From Kribbella sp. ALI-6-A (lineage in GTDB: Bacteria > Actinomycetota > Actinomycetes > Propionibacteriales > Kribbellaceae), in contig NZ_MTQN01000010.1 in NCBI RefSeq assembly GCF_001984195.1, forward strand, positions 124,001-188,000: 64,000 nucleotides of DNA, in the 5' to 3' direction. Of this stretch, positions 34,773-45,077 are shown in pieces. The notes below the pieces were generated by a model. It did not search any database. It had not been told where the DNA came from and worked only from the letters and a program-made list of their open reading frames with translations. Position 1 is the first letter of the stretch. Each line of letters starts with the position of its first letter. The translations under genes were made by a program, and so were the position numbers.

Positions 34773-35534
34773 GTGCGTTACACAGGAGCGACCGCCAGGC
34801 GTGACGAGCTGATCCGGCGGCTGACCGCGGACGGCTACGTCTCGTCGGCTGGAGCCGCCCTCGACCTCGGGGTGTCGGAGATGACGATCCGTCGAGACCT
34901 ACGGCGACTCGACCTGGACGGCCTCGCCCGGCGGGTGACGGGTGGCGCAAGTCTCCCGACCGCAGGCGACGGAGAGCCGTTCGACCAGCGCAACCGCGCC
35001 GGCAGATCGGACAAGCGGGCAATCGTGGCCGCCTGCGCGGAACTGCTGACCGACGCGGCCACCATCGCCCTGGACGCCGGTACGACGGTGGCGCCGCTCG
35101 CGGCTCTCGTACCGAAGGACGTCACGGTGGTGACGCACTCCCTGCCGGTGATCAGCACGTGCGCGGCCCGCGACGACGTCGAACTCGTCGCGCTGGGCGG
35201 TACGTACCAGGCCGACACGCGATCCTTCACCGGACCGGCGACCGAGGCCGGAGTCGCCAGCCTGTCGGTCGACGTCGCCGTACTGTCGGCGACGGCCGTC
35301 GATGCCTCAGGACTGCTGTGCAGCAAGGCGTTGGACGCGAGCATCAAGCAGCGACTGGCCGAGGTCGCGCAGCGGACCATCCTGTTGGTGGACCATCGCA
35401 AACTCGGTGGACGGGCCCCGATCCGGTTCGGCCGGCTCGACCTCGTCGACGTCGTGGTCACCGACTCGGGATCGACCGCCGAGCAGCGGGAGCTGCTGGG
35501 CAGCGGCGGCGCCCGCGTGGTGGTGGCGCCATGA
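34773..35534 (+). CDS. DeoR/GlpR family transcriptional regulator
   Basis: A 253-residue regulator. The N-terminal HTH is RRDELIRRLTADGYVSSAGA then ALDLGVSEMTIRRDLRRLDL, followed by the DeoR hinge RRVTGGAS. The C-terminal sugar-phosphate-sensing domain has IALDAGTTVAPLA and LLVDHRKLGG. GTG 34773 is the start. It overlaps the acid-sugar kinase by 4 bp, so it probably responds to a phosphorylated intermediate of that pathway and represses the divergent promoters. Confidence 0.9.
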   Translation: MRYTGATARRDELIRRLTADGYVSSAGAALDLGVSEMTIRRDLRRLDLDGLARRVTGGASLPTAGDGEPFDQRNRAGRSDKRAIVAACAELLTDAATIALDAGTTVAPLAALVPKDVTVVTHSLPVISTCAARDDVELVALGGTYQADTRSFTGPATEAGVASLSVDVAVLSATAVDASGLLCSKALDASIKQRLAEVAQRTILLVDHRKLGGRAPIRFGRLDLVDVVVTDSGSTAEQRELLGSGGARVVVAP

Positions 35535-36820
35535 GAGCCGCAGCGTGGTCGCCTGAGCTGCGCGGCCCGGGTCCCCTGCTGGGCGTGGTCGCGGACGACC
35601 TGACCGGCGCCTGCGATCTGGCCGGCGGCGTCGCGCACGCCGGACTGACAACCTCGGTGACGCTCGGCGTACCGACCGAGCCGATCCCGTCCGACGTCGA
35701 CTGCGCCGTCGTCGCGCTGAAGTCCCGGACGAACGACCCCGCCGAGGCGGTCCGGGACTCGCTCGCAGCCGCCCGAGCACTTCGGGACGCGGGAGTCCGG
35801 TACGTCTACCAGAAATACTGCTCGACGTTCGACTCGACCGACCGGGGCAACATCGGTCCGGTCGCCGATGCGCTGGTCGACCTGCTCGGCCCGGACGCGA
35901 TCAGCCTCGGTACGCCGGCCACGCCGCAGGTCGGCCGGACGCAGTACCTGGGCCACTTGTTCGTCAACGGCCAACTGCTGTCGGAGTCGTCGCTGCGCGA
36001 CCACCCGTTGACGCCGATGACCGACGCGAATCTGGTCCGCGTGCTCGGGCGGCAGACCACTCGATCGGTCGGGTTGGTTGATCACTCGGTCGTACGCCGT
36101 GGCGCGGCGGCGATCGCGGCCGCGGTGAAGGCGGCCGCGGTCAAGGCGTCGGCGGTGAAGACGGCCGCGGTGAAGGCGTCAGCGGTGCAGGCGTCGGCGG
36201 GTGCGGCCGGACACCGCGCCATGCTCGAGGCCGAGCACGTCGATGCAGTCCACCGTCACCTCCTGGTCGACGCGGTGGAGGATGCCGATTTGGACCGGCT
36301 CGCCGAGGCGATCGCGCTGCTCGACGTACCGGTCGTGCTCGGCGGTGGTGCCGGGCTCGCGGTCGCTCTCGCGCGCTCGATGGCCGGTGCCGCCGAGCGG
36401 GGACCGGAGGAGCTTCCGCCGATCGAGGCCGGTGCGCGGCTGATCATCTCCGGCAGCGGGTCGGAACGGACCCGTGCGCAGGTCGGGGCGTTCCAGGGGC
36501 GGGTCATCTCGGTCGATCCGCTCGCCCTGGCGGCCGACGGGTCGGCGTCGGTGATCAACCGGCTGGTCCGGGAACTGGCCGAAGCCATCCGCGCCGTCGA
36601 CGACCTGGGCGTCCGGCGCATGATCGTCGCCGGTGGCGAGACGTCCGGCGCCGTCGCGGCGGCGCTCGGCGTGAAGACCGTCCGGATCGGCGCCCTGGCC
36701 GCGCCCGGCGTGCCCTGGACGTACGCGACGGTGCGCGATCGCCCGATCGCACTGCTGCTGAAGTCCGGCAACTTCGGCGGCCCCGATCTGTTCGACACTG
36801 CCTGGGAGGTCGCTCCGTGA
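35531..36820 (+). CDS. Four-carbon acid sugar kinase (DUF1537, OtnK-like)
   Basis: A 429-residue kinase. The N-terminal domain starts GPLLGVVADDLTGACDLAGG, the DUF1537 signature with DDLTGA, then YQKYCSTFDSTDRGNIGPVA. The C-terminal nucleotide-binding domain has ARLIISGSGSERTRAQVGAF, IVAGGETSGAVAAALG and LKSGNFGGPDLF. Known members phosphorylate 3-oxo-tetronates or threonate. Between the domains, residues 196-223 are an Ala/Val/Lys repeat (AAVKA-type) not expected in the family. ATG 35531 overlaps the deoR stop, and the aldolase GTG overlaps this stop, giving a tight three-gene operon. Confidence 0.88.
   Translation: MRAAAWSPELRGPGPLLGVVADDLTGACDLAGGVAHAGLTTSVTLGVPTEPIPSDVDCAVVALKSRTNDPAEAVRDSLAAARALRDAGVRYVYQKYCSTFDSTDRGNIGPVADALVDLLGPDAISLGTPATPQVGRTQYLGHLFVNGQLLSESSLRDHPLTPMTDANLVRVLGRQTTRSVGLVDHSVVRRGAAAIAAAVKAAAVKASAVKTAAVKASAVQASAGAAGHRAMLEAEHVDAVHRHLLVDAVEDADLDRLAEAIALLDVPVVLGGGAGLAVALARSMAGAAERGPEELPPIEAGARLIISGSGSERTRAQVGAFQGRVISVDPLALAADGSASVINRLVRELAEAIRAVDDLGVRRMIVAGGETSGAVAAALGVKTVRIGALAAPGVPWTYATVRDRPIALLLKSGNFGGPDLFDTAWEVAP
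36116..36200 (+). repeat. 15-bp tandem repeat inside the acid-sugar kinase gene
   Basis: Five units of 15 bp, first unit GCGGCCGCGGTGAAG, run from 36116 to 36190 with a partial sixth to 36200. They encode Ala-Ala-Ala-Val-Lys style pentapeptides. Units differ at only a few bases, which suggests recent expansion. The frame is kept. Confidence 0.85.
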
Positions 36821-37449
36821 TTGCCGACAGCCTGACGGAGATCCGGGAACAAGTCGTCGCGGCCTGCCGGCACCTGGCCGCCGCCGGCCTGTCCCCGGGA
36901 AGCTCCGGCAACGTCAGCGTGCGCGTCGGCGATCAGGTGCTGATCACGCCGACCGGCTCGGCGCTGCGGCGCGTGCAGGCCGAGGACCTTGCGCAAGTGC
37001 CTGTCGACGGCCAGACGAGCAACAGTGCGCCCAAGCCGTCCAAGGAACTGCCCGTCCATCTCGCGGTCTACCGGCAACGCCCGGAGGCGACCGCCGTCGT
37101 CCACCTCCATTCGCCGTACGCGACTGCCTGCGCTTGCCTTCCGCCGGACGAGAGCGGCTTGGCGCAGTTGCCGCCGCTCACGCCCTACCGGGTGATGCGG
37201 CTGGGGGACGTCCCGCTGGCGCCGTACGCGAAACCTGGCTCCAGCGAGCTCGGGGACGGAGTGGAGCGGCTGGCCGTCCGCCATCACGTCATCCTGCTGG
37301 CGAACCACGGATCGGTCGTCGCAGGCACCTCGCTCGACGCGGCCGTCGAGTTGGCGGAAGAGCTCGAGACGGCCGCGCACCTGAGTCTGCTGCTGCGTGA
37401 CCTGCCGCACGTCCAGCTCACCCCGGCTCAGGCCGCCGTGCTCCGCTGA
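36817..37449 (+). CDS. Class II aldolase/adducin family protein (OtnC-like)
   Basis: A 210-residue zinc aldolase-fold protein. Visible signatures are SPGSSGNVSVRVGDQVLITP near 25-45, the catalytic Glu in KPSKELPVHLAVY, the zinc histidines in VVHLHSPYATAC and a third in ILLANHGSVVAG. In acid-sugar pathways this family decarboxylates 3-oxo-tetronate 4-phosphate to dihydroxyacetone phosphate, which fits the kinase upstream. GTG 36817 overlaps the kinase stop by 4 bp. The dehydrogenase and isomerase of the classical pathway are not in the window. Confidence 0.87.
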   Translation: MIADSLTEIREQVVAACRHLAAAGLSPGSSGNVSVRVGDQVLITPTGSALRRVQAEDLAQVPVDGQTSNSAPKPSKELPVHLAVYRQRPEATAVVHLHSPYATACACLPPDESGLAQLPPLTPYRVMRLGDVPLAPYAKPGSSELGDGVERLAVRHHVILLANHGSVVAGTSLDAAVELAEELETAAHLSLLLRDLPHVQLTPAQAAVLR

Positions 37450-37530
37450 CGGCGGTCGGCGACCTTTCGGCTCGCGAACGGCTGACCGGGGTCGGGGTGG
37501 TCGGCCTTGTCGTCAGGGTCAGAATGGGGT

Positions 37531-38931
37531 GTGACTCATTACGACTTGGTGATCGTCGGCACCGGCTCCGGGAACTCGATCCTCGACGGGCGGTTCGCGG
37601 ACTGGAAGACGGCGATCGTCGAACGCGGCACCTTCGGCGGGACCTGCCTGAACGTCGGCTGCATCCCGACCAAGATGTTCGTGCACACCGCCGACCTGGC
37701 CAGGACGCCGTCGATCAGCTCCCGGTACGGCGTCGACGAGCAGCTGACCGGCGTGCGCTGGCCGGACATCCGGGACCGCATCTTCGGCCGGATCGACCCG
37801 ATCGCCGCCGGCGGTTCGGAGTACCGGCGGCACCACGCCGACAACGCGAACGTCACCGTGTACGACGGCACCGGCCGCTTCACCGGGACCAAGGAGCTCA
37901 CCGTGACGGCCCCCGACGGGCAGGCCCGGGTGATCACCGCCGACCGCTTCGTGCTGGCCGCGGGGAGCCGCCCGAACATCCCGTTCGTGCCCGGGCTGGC
38001 CGAGGTCGGCTACCACACCTCGGACACGATCATGCGGCTCGGCGAGCTGCCGGCCCGGCTCGGCATCATCGGCAGCGGTTTCGTCGCGGCCGAATTCGCG
38101 CACGTGTTCTCCTCGCTCGGCGTCGAGGTCACGCTGATCGCGCGCTCCGGCCTGCTGCTGCGCCACGAGGACACCGAGATCGCCACCCGCTACACCGAGC
38201 TGGCCACCACCCAGTACGACGTCCGCCTGAACCACGAAACGGTCAGCGCCACCCGGCGCGCCGACGGCGCGATCGCGCTGGAGACCCTCAGCCCCGGCGG
38301 CCGCGACGAGATCGTCGTGGACGAGGTGCTGGTCGCGATCGGCCGGCGCCCGAACTCCGACCTGCTCGACCCGGCGGCGACCGGTGTCACGGTCGACGAG
38401 GACGAGCGGGTCGTCGTCGACGCCCACCAGCAAACCGTTGTCGAGGGCATCTATGCGCTCGGCGACCTGTCCTCGCTGTACCAGCTCAAGCACGTCGCCA
38501 ACCACGAGGCCCGCGTCGTCCAGCACAACCTGCTGCACCCCGACGACCCGATCGAGTCCGACCACCGCTACGTCCCGTCCGCCGTCTTCGGCTCGCCGCA
38601 GATCGCGTCCGTCGGACTCACCGAGGAACAGGCGCAGGAGCAGAACGTCGAGTACGTCGTCGGCCGGGCCGAGTACGCCGGCATCGCCTACGGCTGGGCG
38701 ATGGAGAACACCAGCGGCTTCGCCAAGGTGCTCGCGGATCCGAAGACCGGTCTGCTGCTCGGTGCCCACATCATCGGCCCGCAGGCCAGCTCGATCCTGC
38801 AACCGGTCATCCAGGCGATGAGCTTCGGTCTCGACGCGCACACGATGGCTCGTGGTCAGTACTGGATCCACCCGGCGCTGCCGGAGCTGGTCGAGAACGC
38901 CTTGCTGAACATCCCGCTCGGCAAGAGCTGA
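37531..38931 (+). CDS. mtr: Mycothione reductase
   Basis: A 466-residue FAD/NADPH disulfide reductase. It has the FAD loop DLVIVGTGSGNSI, the redox pair Cys39/Cys44 in GTCLNVGCIPTKMF, the NADPH motif LGIIGSGFVAAEFAHVFSSL and the C-terminal His-Glu dyad in HPALPELVENAL. The CLNVGCIPTKMF form and the length match actinobacterial Mtr, which recycles oxidised mycothiol in the cytoplasm. GTG 37531 gives VTHYDLVIVG, the usual start. An earlier in-frame start at 37507 is less likely. It is a single gene, convergent with the kinase-LLM fusion. Confidence 0.9.
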   Translation: MTHYDLVIVGTGSGNSILDGRFADWKTAIVERGTFGGTCLNVGCIPTKMFVHTADLARTPSISSRYGVDEQLTGVRWPDIRDRIFGRIDPIAAGGSEYRRHHADNANVTVYDGTGRFTGTKELTVTAPDGQARVITADRFVLAAGSRPNIPFVPGLAEVGYHTSDTIMRLGELPARLGIIGSGFVAAEFAHVFSSLGVEVTLIARSGLLLRHEDTEIATRYTELATTQYDVRLNHETVSATRRADGAIALETLSPGGRDEIVVDEVLVAIGRRPNSDLLDPAATGVTVDEDERVVVDAHQQTVVEGIYALGDLSSLYQLKHVANHEARVVQHNLLHPDDPIESDHRYVPSAVFGSPQIASVGLTEEQAQEQNVEYVVGRAEYAGIAYGWAMENTSGFAKVLADPKTGLLLGAHIIGPQASSILQPVIQAMSFGLDAHTMARGQYWIHPALPELVENALLNIPLGKS

Positions 38932-38964: not shown

Positions 38965-40431
38965 TCAGCGGAAGGCGCTGATCACCTCGCCGGCGGTGTC
39001 CAGCGGGCTGAGGTCGTCGTCGAGGTTCGGCAGGCTGAACATCACCTCGGCGGCGCCGGCCTCGGCCAGCGCGCGAAAGCGTCCGACCTGATCGGTGATC
39101 GTGCCGGCGTTGGCCGTCGCGGCGTACCGGGCCGGGTCCTGGTTGCGCGGCCGCAGTTGGTTGACCAAGGCATCGACCTCGCGCTGATCCCGGCCGATCA
39201 GCGTCGTCGACAGATGGGTGAGCTCGATCTGCCGCGGCTGGGCCTTCAGGTACTCGGCCTTCTCCCGCACGCGGGTGACATCGCCGAAGACGTTCGCCGC
39301 GTCGGCGTACCGGGCTGCCAGTCGTAGGGTCCGCGGTCCGCTCCCGCCAACCAGCAACGGCACGTTGTCCTGCAGGGGTCGTGGATAGCAGGTCGTGTCC
39401 GGCACCTCGAGCACCTTGCCGCTGAACCCCTTGTTTCCCGCGCCCCACAGCACCGGCAGCACCTGCAGCGCGTCTTCGAGCAACGCGTATCGCTCGGCCG
39501 TCGACGGGAACTCCCACCCGTACGCCTTGTGCTCGGCCTCGAACCACCCGAGCCCGACCCCGCACACCGCACGCCCACCACTGAGAACGTCCAGCGTGGC
39601 AACGATCTTGCCCAGATGCGCGACGTTCCGGTACGTGATGCCCGTGACCAGCGTGCCGAGCCGGACCCGCTCCGTGCAGGCCGCGAGGTACGCCAGCGTC
39701 GTCCAGCTCTCCAGGAAGTCCTCCCAGGCCCGCCCGACCTGCGGGATCTGCCGGAAGTGGTCCATCACGTAGATCGCGTCGAACCCCGCCGCCTCCGCCC
39801 GCGCCCCGACCTGCCGGATCCATTCGCCGGTCGTCTTCCGCCCGCCCTTGTGCGTGTAGCTGCTCACCTGCAACCCGAACCGCAACCCGCGCGGCGCCGC
39901 GTCCTCCCGCCGTACCGCCGCATCCGCTTGGACAAACGCCTCCGGTACGACGCGAACCTCCGTCGCCGCCTGCAGCACTTCGTCGAATCCCTCGCCCGGC
40001 AGCTCCTTCTTCACCCGGTTCCACGTCGTCAACTGCGCCGCCAGCGCGTCGGCCGGAATCCGCTTCACCCGCTCACGATTCCGCCGCCGGCACTCCGCCG
40101 CCGGGGTGTCGAAAGCCACCGCCACACAGGGCATCCCGTGCTCCCGAGCCAACGCCAACCACCGCAGCCGCCGCTCCCGATCCAGCCCCAACGTGTCGAT
40201 CACGGTCGTCAGCCGCCGCCCGATCCGCTGCCGAACCACCGCCTCCAGCAAGTCGAACGCATCCGCACTCGCCGCCAGATCGTCCTCCCCGGCCCCCACC
40301 AACGCCCGCAGCCGATCACTGGACACCACCAGCTCGCCCGCGAACCTCTCCCCAGCCCACGTCGACTTCCCCGCCGCCCCCGGCCCCACCAGCACCACCA
40401 CACACGGCGAAGGCAGCTTCCGCTCGTCCAT
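38965..40431 (-). CDS. P-loop kinase fused to LLM-class F420-dependent oxidoreductase
   Basis: A 488-residue fusion. Residues 1-175 are a polynucleotide-kinase-like P-loop domain: Walker A GPGAAGKST (16-24), SSDRLRALVGAG and a lid-like RRRNRERVKRIP. Residues 183-488 are a luciferase-like TIM barrel: LRFGLQVSSYTHKGGRKTTG, EAAGFDAIYVMDHF, RVRLGTLVTGITYRNVAHLG and LLVGGSGPRTLRLAARYAD, the pattern of F420-dependent members. One ATG at 40431 starts both, with no internal stop. The kinase may phosphorylate what the barrel reduces, or act on nucleic acid; both are inference. Confidence 0.85.
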   Translation of the reverse strand: MDERKLPSPCVVVLVGPGAAGKSTWAGERFAGELVVSSDRLRALVGAGEDDLAASADAFDLLEAVVRQRIGRRLTTVIDTLGLDRERRLRWLALAREHGMPCVAVAFDTPAAECRRRNRERVKRIPADALAAQLTTWNRVKKELPGEGFDEVLQAATEVRVVPEAFVQADAAVRREDAAPRGLRFGLQVSSYTHKGGRKTTGEWIRQVGARAEAAGFDAIYVMDHFRQIPQVGRAWEDFLESWTTLAYLAACTERVRLGTLVTGITYRNVAHLGKIVATLDVLSGGRAVCGVGLGWFEAEHKAYGWEFPSTAERYALLEDALQVLPVLWGAGNKGFSGKVLEVPDTTCYPRPLQDNVPLLVGGSGPRTLRLAARYADAANVFGDVTRVREKAEYLKAQPRQIELTHLSTTLIGRDQREVDALVNQLRPRNQDPARYAATANAGTITDQVGRFRALAEAGAAEVMFSLPNLDDDLSPLDTAGEVISAFR

Positions 40432-40458: not shown

Positions 40459-41190
40459 CTAGAGCTGCACCACGAACCACTCCCGAGCATCGTCGAACCG
40501 GACGAAGGCCCGGTCGTCACGGCACACGACCTGCCGCGGCTGCCCTGGCGGCTCACTCCCGTCCGGCATCGTCAATGGGACCTTGCGCTCGACCAGAACG
40601 TCGTCGCCGTCGTCGCTCCAGCCGATGCTGACTGTTACCTGCCGACTGGGGGCGGTCCGACGCCGGTCGTGGCGGTAGTCGTCGTACTCGCCGAGAAAGG
40701 CCACCAACGGCCCGGAAACCAGGAGCCCGCGAGCGCCTCTGACGCTGGTTCCACGGATGCCGCGCACCCCCTTCCGATCAACGGTCACCAGCGGGAACTC
40801 GTGGTAGAGACAGCCCCACGTGAGTTCCTCGCCGACGTTGAGGGCGTAGCAATCCATCCATCCGACACCGTCGTACGCCGGCAGCCAGGCGAGACTGCCG
40901 TCCGACTTCCACCGGTTCCGTGCGTCCGCCACGACGAAACCGTCGCCCAGGGCATCGATCATCGGGTACTCGGCGTCGAGCGGTTCGAGCTCCACATCGA
41001 TGGTGACGTCCGAAGGGCCGACGACCACCGCACGGGCTCGGTACGGTCGATCCACGGCGGCTGGAGTCACCGCATCGGCGATCAAGGCGATCAGACGACC
41101 GTCGAGGTCGACAGAACTGGCGACGAACTGCTCGTCGCTGAAGCGGAAGTCGGTTGGGGGTGACGGGCCCAACTGGCAGTCTGTTCCCAT
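40459..41190 (-). CDS. Hypothetical protein
   Basis: A 243-residue soluble protein with normal composition and no signal peptide or helix for the membrane. It is beta-rich, with segments such as DGFVVADARNRWKSDGSLAW, DCYALNVGEELTWGCLYHEF and VSIGWSDDGDDVLVERKVPL. I do not recognise a family. Its ATG (41190-41188) overlaps the divergent thpR ATG on the sequence CATG, so one of the two starts may lie further in, or both messages are leaderless. It ends 27 bp before the kinase-LLM start on the same strand. Confidence 0.65.
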   Translation of the reverse strand: MGTDCQLGPSPPTDFRFSDEQFVASSVDLDGRLIALIADAVTPAAVDRPYRARAVVVGPSDVTIDVELEPLDAEYPMIDALGDGFVVADARNRWKSDGSLAWLPAYDGVGWMDCYALNVGEELTWGCLYHEFPLVTVDRKGVRGIRGTSVRGARGLLVSGPLVAFLGEYDDYRHDRRRTAPSRQVTVSIGWSDDGDDVLVERKVPLTMPDGSEPPGQPRQVVCRDDRAFVRFDDAREWFVVQL

Positions 41191-41752
41191 GCGATTGTTC
41201 GTGGCCGTTGTGCCGCCTGTGGAGGTTGTCGAGCATCTGAGTGAGTTCGTGGAGCCGCGTCGGTCTCATCCGGACGAGGACGTTCGGTGGGCCAGTGACG
41301 AAACCTGGCACATCACCCTCGCGTTCCTGGGGGAGGTGCCGGAGTGGAAGACCGATGATCTGGGGGAGGGGCTGGAGCGGGCCGCCGCCAGGCAGAAGCC
41401 GTTCGATCTGCGGCTGGGGGGAGCGGGCGCGTTTCCCGGCGTACCGGATGCTCGGGTGTTGTGGACCGGGGTGCACGACGAGACCGGGTCGCTCAAGCAC
41501 CTGGCGATGACGACGCGGTCGGCGGCGAACAAGGCCGGTGTCACCGTCGACGGGCGCAAGTTCACGCCGCATCTGACGCTGGCCCGGATGCGCCGGCCGA
41601 TGGACGTCGTGCGCTGGGTCCGGGTCTTCGACGAGTACCAGGGACCGGCCTGGACGGCGGAGAGTCTGCAGTTGATCTCGTCGCGGCTGGGCGAAGGGCC
41701 GAGCCATGGTGCGGCGTACGACACAGTGGGCGAATGGGATTTCTTAGGTTAA
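41189..41752 (+). CDS. thpR: RNA 2',3'-cyclic phosphodiesterase (LigT family)
   Basis: A 187-residue 2H phosphoesterase. The two catalytic HxTx motifs are at His41 (WHITLAFLG) and His128 (FTPHLTLAR). It opens MRLFVAVVPPVEVVEHL, the classic ThpR start, so ATG 41189 is well supported. The enzyme hydrolyses 2',3'-cyclic phosphate ends of RNA to 2'-phosphates. Its stop lies inside the iron-type operator of the following efeUOB operon. Confidence 0.9.
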   Translation: MRLFVAVVPPVEVVEHLSEFVEPRRSHPDEDVRWASDETWHITLAFLGEVPEWKTDDLGEGLERAAARQKPFDLRLGGAGAFPGVPDARVLWTGVHDETGSLKHLAMTTRSAANKAGVTVDGRKFTPHLTLARMRRPMDVVRWVRVFDEYQGPAWTAESLQLISSRLGEGPSHGAAYDTVGEWDFLG

Positions 41753-41794: not shown

Positions 41795-42631
41795 ATGCTC
41801 GCCAACTACCTCATCGGACTGCGTGAGGGACTGGAGGCGTCCCTGGTGGTCAGCATCCTGGCCACGTTCCTGGTGAAGTCCGGGCACCGGGACCGTCTCA
41901 AACTGGTCTGGGCCGGAGTGGCCGCGGCGGTCGCCGTCGCGGCCGCCGGCTGGGCCCTGCTGCAGTTCATCACCGCGCTGACCGCGAAGTCGTTCACCAC
42001 CCAGGAGACGATCGGCGGCGTGATGTCGATCATCGCGGTCGGCTTCGTCACCTGGATGATCTTCTGGATGCGCAAGGCGTCCCGCACGATCGCCAAGGAC
42101 CTGCGCGACCGGATGGACGTCGCACTGCAGATGGGCCCGGCCGCGGTCGTGCTGCTCGCCTTCCTGGCGGTCTTCCGCGAAGGCATCGAGACCGCGTTCA
42201 TCGTCTACGCCTCGGCGGCGACCGCGACCACCGCGACGCCGTTCGTCGGGGTGCTGCTCGGCCTGATCACCGCCGTCGGACTGGGCTTCGCGATCTACCG
42301 CGGCGCGGTCAGGATCAACCTTGGCGTGTTCTTCAACTGGACCGGCGCGCTGCTGATCCTGGTCGCGGCCGGCATCTTCGCCTACGGCTTCCACGACCTG
42401 CAAGAGGCCAACCTCCTGCCCGGTCTGCACAACCTGGCCTTCGACATCTCCGCGGTGATCCCGCCGGACAGCTGGTACGGCGTACTGCTGAAGGGGATCT
42501 TCAACTTCACCCCGGCCCCGACCGTGATCGAGCTGACCGCGTGGCTGGTCTACCTGATCCCGGTCCTCGTGCTCTACCTCCGTCCGGTCAAGCGCCCGGC
42601 GGCACCACCCGCAGTGCCTGCTCAGGCCTGA
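41795..42631 (+). CDS. efeU: Ferrous/ferric iron permease EfeU (FTR1 family)
   Basis: A 278-residue, seven-helix permease. The two iron-binding REGxE motifs are REGLE at 10-14 and REGIE at 128-132. Other FTR1 features are VGFVTWMIFWMRKASRTIAK and NWTGALLILVAAGIFAYGFH. It imports iron across the membrane together with EfeO and EfeB. CCAGGAG precedes ATG 41795 by 9 bp. It is the first gene of efeUOB, directly behind the iron operator. Confidence 0.93.
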   Translation: MLANYLIGLREGLEASLVVSILATFLVKSGHRDRLKLVWAGVAAAVAVAAAGWALLQFITALTAKSFTTQETIGGVMSIIAVGFVTWMIFWMRKASRTIAKDLRDRMDVALQMGPAAVVLLAFLAVFREGIETAFIVYASAATATTATPFVGVLLGLITAVGLGFAIYRGAVRINLGVFFNWTGALLILVAAGIFAYGFHDLQEANLLPGLHNLAFDISAVIPPDSWYGVLLKGIFNFTPAPTVIELTAWLVYLIPVLVLYLRPVKRPAAPPAVPAQA

Positions 42632-42669
42632 CCACTCCGGCCTCGACGGCCCCCCGAGAAAGAACACCG

Positions 42670-43812
42670 ATGAACCCGATCACCACCCGCCGTGGTCTCG
42701 CGGCCGGCACCGTCCTGCTGCTGGCCGCCCTGACCGGTTGTGCCGAGGAGACCCCGGCGGCCGCGCCCGGCGACGACACCGGTCCGGTCACCGTCAAGGC
42801 CTCCGACGACGGCTGCGACCTGAGCCGCCGGGACGTGAAGTCCGGCACCAGCACCTTCTCGGTGTCCAACGGCGGCAGCAAGGTCACCGAGTTCTACGTG
42901 TACGCCGAGGGCGACCGCGTGATGGGCGAGGTCGAGAACATCGGCCCCGGCCTGAAGCGCGACCTGATCGTCGAGCTGCCGACCGGCAAGTACCAGGCGG
43001 TCTGCAAGCCCGGCATGGTCGGCGACGGCATCCGCGGCGACCTGACCGTCACCGGTGAGGCGGCCGCGCAGGTCGACACCGACACCGCGCTGAAGGACGC
43101 CACCGTCAGCTACCAGCGCTACGTGAACTCGCAGGCGATCGCGCTGGAGGAGAAGACCACCGAGTTCGTCGCCGCGGTCAAGGCGGGCGACGTGGCCAAG
43201 TCCAAGGCGCTGTTCCCGGTCTCGCGCACGTACTGGGAGCGGATCGAGCCGGTGGCGGAGTCGTTCGGCGACCTCGACCCGAAGATCGACGCCCGGGTGA
43301 ACGACGTCGAGCCGGGCACCGAGTGGACCGGGTACCACCGCATCGAGCAGGCGCTGTGGGAGAAGAACAGCACCGCCGGCATGACCAAGTACGCCGACCA
43401 GCTGCTGGTCGACGTGAAGACGGTGGTCGCCAAGGCCAAGACCGTGCAGCTGAACCCGCTGCAGCTGGCCAACGGCGCCAAGGAGCTGCTGGACGAGGTC
43501 GCCACCGGCAAGATCACCGGTGAGGAGGACCGCTACTCACACACCGACCTGTGGGACTTCCAGGCCAACGTCGAGGGCTCGCAGGCCGCGATCCAGGCGC
43601 TCCGCCCGGCTCTGCAGCAGCGCGACGCCGCGCTGGTCACCACGCTCGACACCAACTTCAAGGCGGTCTTCGCCGCGGTCGACAAGTACCGCGTCGGCGA
43701 CGGCTTCAAGCCCTACCGGCCGACCGAGGCCGAGCGCCGCGAGCTCGGCAACGTCGTCGACGCCCTGGCCGAACCGGTCAGCAAGGTCGCCGGGGTCATC
43801 GCGAAGAAATGA
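42670..43812 (+). CDS. efeO: Iron uptake lipoprotein EfeO (cupredoxin + imelysin/M75)
   Basis: A 380-residue lipoprotein. The signal peptide ends in lipobox LTGC with Cys24. An EfeO cupredoxin-like domain spans about residues 38-135 (SGTSTFSVSNGGSKVTEFYV and KYQAVCKPGM). The M75/imelysin domain follows, with the metal-binding HxxE motif in TGYHRIEQALW and GEEDRYSHTDLWDFQANVEG. It delivers iron to EfeU. ATG 42670 is chosen on the lipoprotein signal. The stop overlaps efeB by 4 bp. Confidence 0.93.
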   Translation: MNPITTRRGLAAGTVLLLAALTGCAEETPAAAPGDDTGPVTVKASDDGCDLSRRDVKSGTSTFSVSNGGSKVTEFYVYAEGDRVMGEVENIGPGLKRDLIVELPTGKYQAVCKPGMVGDGIRGDLTVTGEAAAQVDTDTALKDATVSYQRYVNSQAIALEEKTTEFVAAVKAGDVAKSKALFPVSRTYWERIEPVAESFGDLDPKIDARVNDVEPGTEWTGYHRIEQALWEKNSTAGMTKYADQLLVDVKTVVAKAKTVQLNPLQLANGAKELLDEVATGKITGEEDRYSHTDLWDFQANVEGSQAAIQALRPALQQRDAALVTTLDTNFKAVFAAVDKYRVGDGFKPYRPTEAERRELGNVVDALAEPVSKVAGVIAKK

Positions 43813-45077
43813 GTGAGCCGAAGAAGGGCATCTCCCGCCGTGGGCTGTTCGGCGCGGCGGGGGCTGCCGTTGCCACCGGTGTCGCCGGGTACGCCGCGCA
43901 CTCCGTCCTCAGCAGTGAGGAGTCGCAGGCTGCCGACACCAGTGGGCCGGTGGAGTTCCACGGGCAACACCAGGCCGGAATCGTCACCCCCGCGCAGGAC
44001 CGGCTGCACTTCGCGACGTTCGACGTCACCACCGACAAGCGCGACCAGGTGATCGCGCTGCTCAAGGAGTGGACCGCGGCCGCCGCGCTGATGACGGCCG
44101 GACGCGACATCGGCCAGTACGGCGCGGTGAACGGCCCGGCCGAAGCGCCGCCCGAGGACACCGGCGAAGCCGTCGGTCTGCCGCCGGCCCGGCTGACGCT
44201 GACGATCGGCTTCGGCCCGAGCTTCTTCCAAGATGCCAAGGGCAACGATCGCTTCGGCTTGAAGGCCCGTCGCCCGGCCGCCCTGGTCGACCTGCCGCAC
44301 TTCATCGGCGACAACCTCGACCCGGCCCGCAGCGGCGGCGACATCGCCGTCCAGGCCTGCAGCGACGACCCGCAGGTCGCCGTGCACGCGATCCGCAACC
44401 TGGCCCGGATCGGCTTCGGCACCACCGCCGTGCGCTACTCCCAGCTCGGTTTCGGCCGGACGTCGTCCACCTCGCGGGCGCAGACCACGCCCCGCAACCT
44501 GTTCGGCTTCAAGGACGGCACGAACAATCTCAAGCTCGAGGACACCGCCAAGCTGGAGCAGCAGCTCTGGGTCCAGCCCGAGGACGGCCCGGACTGGATG
44601 GTCGGCGGCTCGTACCTGGTCGCCCGCCGGATCCGGATGACGATCGAGACCTGGGACCGTACGTCGCTCAGCGAGCAGGAGCTGATCGTCGGCCGCGGCA
44701 AGGGCACCGGCGCCCCGCTGGGCAAGTCCGAGGAGTTCGACCCGATCGACTTCGAGGCCAAGGGCGCGGACGGCGAACTCAAGATCGCCAAGGACGCGCA
44801 CATCCGGCTCGCGCATCCCCAGTTCAACAACGGCGCCGAGCTGCTCCGCCGCGGCTACAACTTCGTCGACGGCTCGGACGGCCTGGGCCGCCTCGACGCC
44901 GGCCTGTTCTTCCTGGCCTACCAGCGCGATCCGCGCAAGCAGTTCATCCCGATCCAGCGGCAGCTGGCCCGCTCCGACGTGATGAACGAGTACATCCGCC
45001 ATGTCGGCTCTGGCATCTTCGCCTGCCCCGGCGGCGTACCGGCGGGCTCGTTCTGGGGCGAGAAGCTCTTCGGCTGA
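43809..45077 (+). CDS. efeB: Deferrochelatase/peroxidase EfeB (DyP-type)
   Basis: A 422-residue haem peroxidase. A twin-arginine signal (SRRGLFGAAGAAVATGVAGY) sends it out folded. The DyP motif GFKDG is at 233-237 with Asp236, and the haem-ligand histidine is probably His336 in RLAHPQFNNG. EfeB oxidises ferrous iron for the EfeUO importer and has been reported to release iron from haem. ATG 43809 overlaps the efeO stop (ATGA), so it is translationally coupled. Confidence 0.93.
   Translation: MSEPKKGISRRGLFGAAGAAVATGVAGYAAHSVLSSEESQAADTSGPVEFHGQHQAGIVTPAQDRLHFATFDVTTDKRDQVIALLKEWTAAAALMTAGRDIGQYGAVNGPAEAPPEDTGEAVGLPPARLTLTIGFGPSFFQDAKGNDRFGLKARRPAALVDLPHFIGDNLDPARSGGDIAVQACSDDPQVAVHAIRNLARIGFGTTAVRYSQLGFGRTSSTSRAQTTPRNLFGFKDGTNNLKLEDTAKLEQQLWVQPEDGPDWMVGGSYLVARRIRMTIETWDRTSLSEQELIVGRGKGTGAPLGKSEEFDPIDFEAKGADGELKIAKDAHIRLAHPQFNNGAELLRRGYNFVDGSDGLGRLDAGLFFLAYQRDPRKQFIPIQRQLARSDVMNEYIRHVGSGIFACPGGVPAGSFWGEKLFG

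Follow-up and report, generated by a model that had tools for sequence, protein, structure and literature searches.

A P-loop kinase nearest to Pnkp kinases is joined to a luciferase-like oxidoreductase in one protein of Kribbella and other Actinomycetota

A single frame encodes a kinase and a luciferase-like barrel

The window that we analyzed is a stretch of 64,000 nucleotides from Kribbella sp. ALI-6-A. It contains a gene whose product joins, in a single chain, an N-terminal P-loop kinase that is nearest to Pnkp kinases and a C-terminal luciferase-like oxidoreductase (Table 1). Pfam profiles place AAA_33 (PF13671) at residues 11–139 (profile positions 1–138 of 143; E 1.2e-24; 87.7 bits against a cut-off of 27) and Bac_luciferase (PF00296) at residues 204–459 (profile positions 24–283 of 314; E 1.4e-39; 136.8 bits, cut-off 27.9), both in one open frame. 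Both domains are essentially complete, and a first-pass annotation that had described a Walker A kinase and a luciferase-like barrel within one reading frame is confirmed by these scores. Searches with Pfam and NCBIfam profiles detected no phosphatase or ligase domain in the protein. We consider the ATG start to be sound because the nearest relative found (L021, 87% identity to the window protein) has a stop codon two codons upstream of the equivalent start. On the downstream side the fusion gene meets a convergent pyridine-nucleotide disulphide reductase (37507–38931).

Table 1. Positions of the fusion gene, its parts and two upstream genes within the window
Feature	Position	Strand	Remarks
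Whole fusion gene, 488 aa + stop	38965..40431	-	ATG start
Kinase domain, residues 1-154	39970..40431	-	AAA_33; clade beside Pnkp kinases
Walker A, residues 16-23 (GPGAAGKS)	40363..40386	-	Alignment of 85 fusions
SSDRLR, residues 37-42	40306..40323	-	Alignment of 85 fusions
DTLG, residues 79-82	40186..40197	-	Replaces DATN of Pnkp kinases
Lid R-N-x-x-R, residues 117-121	40069..40083	-	Alignment of 85 fusions
Interdomain linker, residues 155-183	39883..39969	-	Length and sequence variable across the family
Luciferase-like TIM barrel, residues 184-488	38968..39882	-	TIGR03560-like
Asp224-His225 in the barrel	39757..39762	-	Aligns with Asp-His of Mer and Fgd1
Orphan ORF, 243 aa	40459-41190	-	No Pfam match; 27 bases upstream of the fusion gene, same strand
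LigT-type phosphoesterase (PF02834)	41162-41752	+	Pfam; divergent from the fusion gene

The two domains stay together across the family

Searches with this fusion family gathered 234 locus records, most of them 3–17 kb long, which overlap in part and represent 86 distinct fused proteins (85 full length). In 110 records, the profiles of both domains match within a single frame, and no record has them in two different frames; the remaining 124 hold one domain or neither. The erroneous merging of two adjacent genes is thereby ruled out, and the pattern that the first-pass annotation had named as contrary to a true fusion, homologues that are always separate adjacent genes, was not seen in any of the 234 records, although a split version that is too divergent, or whose halves lie too far apart, could have escaped these searches. 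Domain profile scores across the records are bimodal. Fused barrels score at least 402, except for one cut contig that is present twice (L077 = L098, 348), and the scores of unfused barrels reach no higher than 325, with L069 (459) as the exception; fused kinases score at least 168 and other kinases at most 137, except for L071 (252). L069 and L071 are the sole single-domain family members seen, and both are cut by contig ends, so that single-domain members were seen only where the assembly stops. In an alignment (A4) that included 23 of the 27 named fusions along with 22 of the 53 loci that have a barrel only, Bac_luciferase matches all 46 members and AAA_33 matches 24, which is the number of fused rows. 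Among the matches listed, all 27 named full-length loci (L092–L118) have both domains in one frame. One genome that is 78% complete (G115) holds two copies of the fusion kinase, a full fusion on contig C134 (L052) and the contig-cut L071 on C343.

Within the genus, the gene is full length and in a single frame in 32 of 36 other genomes, as well as in its own. Three of the 37 genomes (G004, G021 and G030) have no copy, and in G011 (L234, G011:C1:888700-890800) a frameshift interrupts the kinase domain while the barrel frame is still open, which could be either a sequencing error or a real loss; in view of this frameshift and these absences, the fusion gene seems to be dispensable. Further afield, the fusion was found in 20 of 394 genomes of a class sample (one more, G389, has a family barrel cut by a contig end) and in 10 of 396 genomes of a phylum sample, bearing in mind that these counts include the own genome in each sample and G103 in both, and that matches were listed to E 1e-55. 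Closer looks at one other genus and one other order found carriers among 10 of 12 and 7 of 30 genomes, respectively. Among the matches listed, carriers bear the labels (of MAGs or isolates) Nitriliruptorales, Acidimicrobiia, Pseudonocardia, Antrihabitans, Kineosporia, Dactylosporangium, Nocardioides, Pedococcus, Terrabacter and Intrasporangium; single MAGs labelled Dormiibacter and Acidobacteria also carry the fusion. This distribution is patchy, and transfer of the fusion between lineages is therefore likely.

Seven residues, K22, D39, R42, D79 and R121 of the kinase and D224 and H225 of the barrel, are invariant in all 85 distinct full-length fusions. Loss of Walker or F420 residues in orthologues, the second pattern singled out by the first-pass annotation, is thus absent at K22, D39, R42, D224 and H225. 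The Walker A residues G16 and G21 are likewise invariant (85/85), position 23 is Ser in 78 proteins and Thr in seven, and R117 and N118 of the lid are each kept in 84 of 85. We take D39 and R42 of the SSDRLR motif to have the catalytic roles known from Pnkp work. Furthermore, Ka/Ks values for nine pairs within the genus are 0.12–0.30 for the kinase, 0.14–0.23 for the barrel and 0.32–0.98 for the linker: purifying selection acts on each of the two domains in this genus, and the linker is under looser constraint. A gene-prediction artefact or chance reading frame is ruled out by the domain scores, the conservation and the selection.

Each domain of the fusion forms one clade

Of the 85 full fusions, 60 entered the barrel tree, after 25 of the 31 rows from the genus had been dropped, together with 75 of 76 other barrels. 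In this tree, made by a quick method and with a long-branch warning among the unfused rows, all fused barrels group in a single clade with L069, the barrel cut by a contig end (SH-aLRT 100). A kinase tree, for which these 60 fusions were combined with every one of the 39 other kinases, likewise unites the fused kinases and the contig-cut L071 (97/93). Beside them lies a clade that contains the Pnkp kinases (99/93), and the two clades together are supported at 97/90; as the trees are drawn midpoint-rooted, this adjacency is not a proven sister relationship. Because each domain forms one supported clade, these trees suggest that the fusion most likely arose once and was followed by joint descent, with both active sites kept. 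Pairwise kinase and barrel distances are correlated (r 0.78; best of 500 permutations 0.12), as would be expected of any pair long inherited together.

The kinase resembles Pnkp kinases and differs on the acceptor side

The kinase of Clostridium thermocellum Pnkp (4gp6/4jst/4mde) has the same Walker A, SSD..R and RN..R lid motifs. When the kinase profile was compared with the PDB, 4gp6 was the best match at 124 bits, and T4 polynucleotide kinase scored 39; the structure listing labels the 4gp6 protein a metallophosphoesterase, and we take its species to be C. thermocellum. TIGR04075, the profile for bacterial Pnkp, matches the fusion over the kinase part only (residues 5–161, aligned within the first 161 positions of the profile; 112 bits, against a full-length cut-off of 750). 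K22, D39, R42 and R121 are common to the fusions and to 13 kinases that we took as Pnkp on the strength of their clade and open-frame length (at least 854 aa in 12 cases; in the other one, L218, the frame is short and a neighbouring gene looks like Hen1 on inspection by eye); of these 13, the one in the own genome was the only one scored with TIGR04075.

On the other hand, the fusions have neither the phosphatase nor the ligase part of bacterial Pnkp, and their kinases form a separate clade. The DATN motif of Pnkp is replaced by DTLG: T80 and L81 are present in more than 90% of the 85 fusions, compared to A and T in all 13 Pnkp kinases, and at the fourth residue at least 95% of fusions have G, compared to mostly N in Pnkp. 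In addition, F25 of Pnkp kinases is W in the fusions, and Gln52, present in 13 of 13 Pnkp kinases, occurs in 12 of the 85 fusions. These altered positions presumably lie near the acceptor in Pnkp, and their divergence leads us to infer that the fused kinase has a changed acceptor. The label 'polynucleotide-kinase-like' in the first-pass annotation therefore holds for overall similarity, with the Clostridium Pnkp kinase as nearest solved structure, and fails for the acceptor-side motif. As judged from its sequence, the fused kinase is nearest to the Pnkp kinases; we make no claim that it belongs among polynucleotide kinases.

These comparisons bear on whether the fusion heals nucleic-acid ends, that is, whether its kinase acts on 5'-OH RNA or DNA as Pnkp does, with the barrel as a redox partner or a detoxifying reductase in the same stress response. 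The adjoining Pnkp clade and the nearest solved structures would fit such a role, but the altered DATN motif and Gln52, and a chain devoid of phosphatase and ligase domains, argue against it. Moreover, the own genome encodes a separate full Pnkp (TIGR04075, 1393.7 bits, cut-off 750) beside Hen1 (666.7 bits, cut-off 340), so that the RNA-repair job is already filled. A LigT cluster offers slight encouragement: across 49 loci in which neighbours were clustered (10 of the genus, 39 outside), it lies directly next to the fusion, in divergent orientation, at 7 of the 10 genus loci and within the flanks at 9, but it accompanies none of the 39 outside loci, and the pairing may accordingly be plain synteny. 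All told, we judge end healing to be distinctly improbable.

The barrel is likely to use F420

TIGR03560, a family of F420-dependent LLM oxidoreductases of the Rv1855c type, is the best NCBIfam family for the window barrel, which scores just under its cut-off (222.3 versus 231.4 bits). L110 also falls below that cut-off (205.3), and L094 (246.6) and L092 (244.5) lie above it. All four fused proteins with a full listing of family matches have TIGR03560 as their best family, and it matches 24 of 24 in alignment A1. Twenty invariant positions are common to the fusions and their unfused relatives. From the TIGR03560 family the fusions differ in the attached kinase, in their separate barrel clade and in the sub-threshold score of the window protein.

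The nearest solved structure by sequence is 3rao, a luciferase-like protein. Mer and Rhodococcus Fgd1 have an Asp-His that lines up with the Asp224-His225 pair, but 3rao does not preserve this pair. Fgd1 resembles the window protein in its TIM barrel, in this pair and in structure (Z 29.9); the two differ in that the window protein reaches 57 bits against an Fgd cut-off of 420, and in that Fgd1 is not known to have a kinase domain. In a structure comparison, F420-dependent Mer (Z 31.6) and FMN-dependent SfnG (31.3) are tied, with RutA and SsuD close behind; barrel matches fill these whole-model PDB lists, which barely test the kinase part.

Carrier genomes also have the F420 gene CofD: it is over the cut-off in 32 of 33 carriers, the own genome included (the exception is an 82% complete assembly), compared to 107 of 198 genomes of a phylum sample (Fisher p 4e-7; kinship is not corrected for, and the 198 include six or more carriers). 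The three genus genomes that do not have the fusion also have CofD. Taking the TIGR03560 match, the Asp-His pair and CofD together, and considering that F420 and FMN enzymes are tied by structure, we conclude that F420 use is likely, and no more than that. The first-pass annotation had called the barrel 'F420-type', a label that is in keeping with family similarity and with CofD co-occurrence. That the kinase is instead fused to an FMN-dependent enzyme would be in keeping with the position of SfnG, RutA and SsuD, yet the best family in the fused proteins is of the F420 type, the Asp-His pair is that of Mer and Fgd1, and CofD is nearly universal in carriers; an FMN cofactor is, in our estimation, highly improbable.

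Domain packing and a possible link between two reactions

The AlphaFold2 model of the window protein is confident throughout, linker included (pLDDT 95.7, pTM 0.92; alignment of 46 rows). For L110, a distant member modelled from 24 rows, confidence is lower (pLDDT 87.1, pTM 0.64), and the linker stretch falls under 50. A fixed interface is thus predicted for the window protein and not for L110. Across the family the linker varies from 22 to 77 residues, and in several members it is rich in Ala, Pro, Gly, Ser and Thr. The interdomain tunnel that the first-pass annotation had suggested seeking by structure prediction finds no backing here: in view of the L110 model and the variable linkers, a conserved rigid interface or tunnel is not supported. 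Furthermore, the N-terminus of a TIM barrel lies on the side away from its active site, and this topology disfavours a direct channel within a single chain.

Tethered to a single oxidoreductase, and packed confidently against it in the predicted structure of the window protein, the kinase domain might be a nucleotide sensor that tunes the barrel and not a metabolic kinase. However, not one of the 85 fusions varies at Asp39, Arg42 or the lid Arg121, a degree of conservation beyond a sensor's expected need, and a fixed interface is not predicted for the distant L110; we view a sensor as rather improbable. Another possibility is that two active enzymes with no common substrate were fused for the sake of joint expression or stability. 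A variable linker, often rich in Ala and Pro and poorly ordered in the L110 model, would be compatible with this, as would the absence of recurrent operon partners. Against it, the 234 locus records yielded no separated version, and both domains have been kept under selection across several families. Fusion for expression or stability alone is, we believe, unlikely.

The reading that we prefer, to which we give somewhat under an even chance, is that of a bifunctional enzyme serving one pathway, with a substrate that is probably not nucleic acid. In such an enzyme, the kinase would transfer phosphate from an NTP to the hydroxyl of a metabolite, probably not to a nucleic-acid end, and the barrel would perform hydride transfer with F420 or F420H2. 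The two reactions may follow one another on a single compound or within one pathway, and the intermediate would pass by diffusion between the tethered sites, not through a tunnel. We propose more tentatively, as a possibility well short of probable, that this is a new class of bifunctional F420 enzyme, in which a repurposed kinase of the Pnkp lineage puts a phosphate tag on a small metabolite that the tethered barrel oxidises or reduces, or in which these steps occur in reverse order; the module would have been invented once and would occur throughout Actinomycetota and, going by how single MAGs are labelled, in other phyla too.

Many luciferase-like F420 enzymes of actinobacteria have no known substrate, and a long-kept fusion narrows the search, since its substrate should suit both a kinase and a hydride transferase. 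In addition, both halves can be switched off separately within the same chain. The family also points to a kinase lineage beside the RNA-repair kinases with a seemingly changed acceptor. The protein is a new arrangement of known domains, and we found no description of a kinase–F420 barrel architecture or family in the literature searched, a scope that excluded most subscription papers. One review tabulates 'other' LLHTs with function unknown and describes a bifunctional precedent in F420 biosynthesis: FbiC, a CofG-CofH fusion whose domains appear to work by diffusion (PMC8498797). FbiC differs from the kinase–barrel fusion in that its domains are radical SAM domains with other chemistry (PMC8498797).

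Genes around the fusion

We also surveyed mobile and defence-related sequences. Among 20 matching plasmid records, none had 80% of the fusion protein in one place; PADLOC defence systems gave one match, to the barrel, at 45 bits; and 18 viral-contig matches cover the kinase part alone. Six phage records matched, one of which (L091, MT836289.1) holds 94% of the protein. On these plasmid, PADLOC, viral-contig and phage results we reject a mobile or defence gene. L091 is an unverified faecal-sample scaffold labelled 'Bacteriophage sp.', with a full fusion and with neighbours that look bacterial by eye; it is probably a mislabelled bacterial scaffold.

When the two closest genes on either side are considered, every cluster is confined to 4 or fewer of the 38 outside loci in which the fusion was called (in L208 the fusion escaped the simple gene caller and was recovered by the domain profiles). 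The most frequent outside cluster is acyl-CoA-dehydrogenase-like (L093, L114, L115 and L202). Since no neighbour recurs across the family, the context gives no pathway. Close relatives do have neighbours in common, namely L116 with L117, and L092 and L098 with L206. An acyl-CoA-dehydrogenase-like gene lies near or beside the fusion in L069, L115, L202, L114 and L093, most of which are Nocardioides-like; its identity was checked with Pfam at L069 alone.

Of 38 other relatives, 3 partially match the orphan frame upstream of the window's fusion gene; one of these three, G019, has fragmentary pieces of it just upstream of its own fusion gene. Elsewhere in the window, positions 34773–37449 hold a DeoR-type regulator and a four-carbon-sugar-kinase-like ORF (both by eye) together with a class II aldolase (Pfam), and positions 41795–45077 hold an FTR1 iron permease (Pfam), followed downstream by ORFs that resemble EfeO and EfeB by eye.
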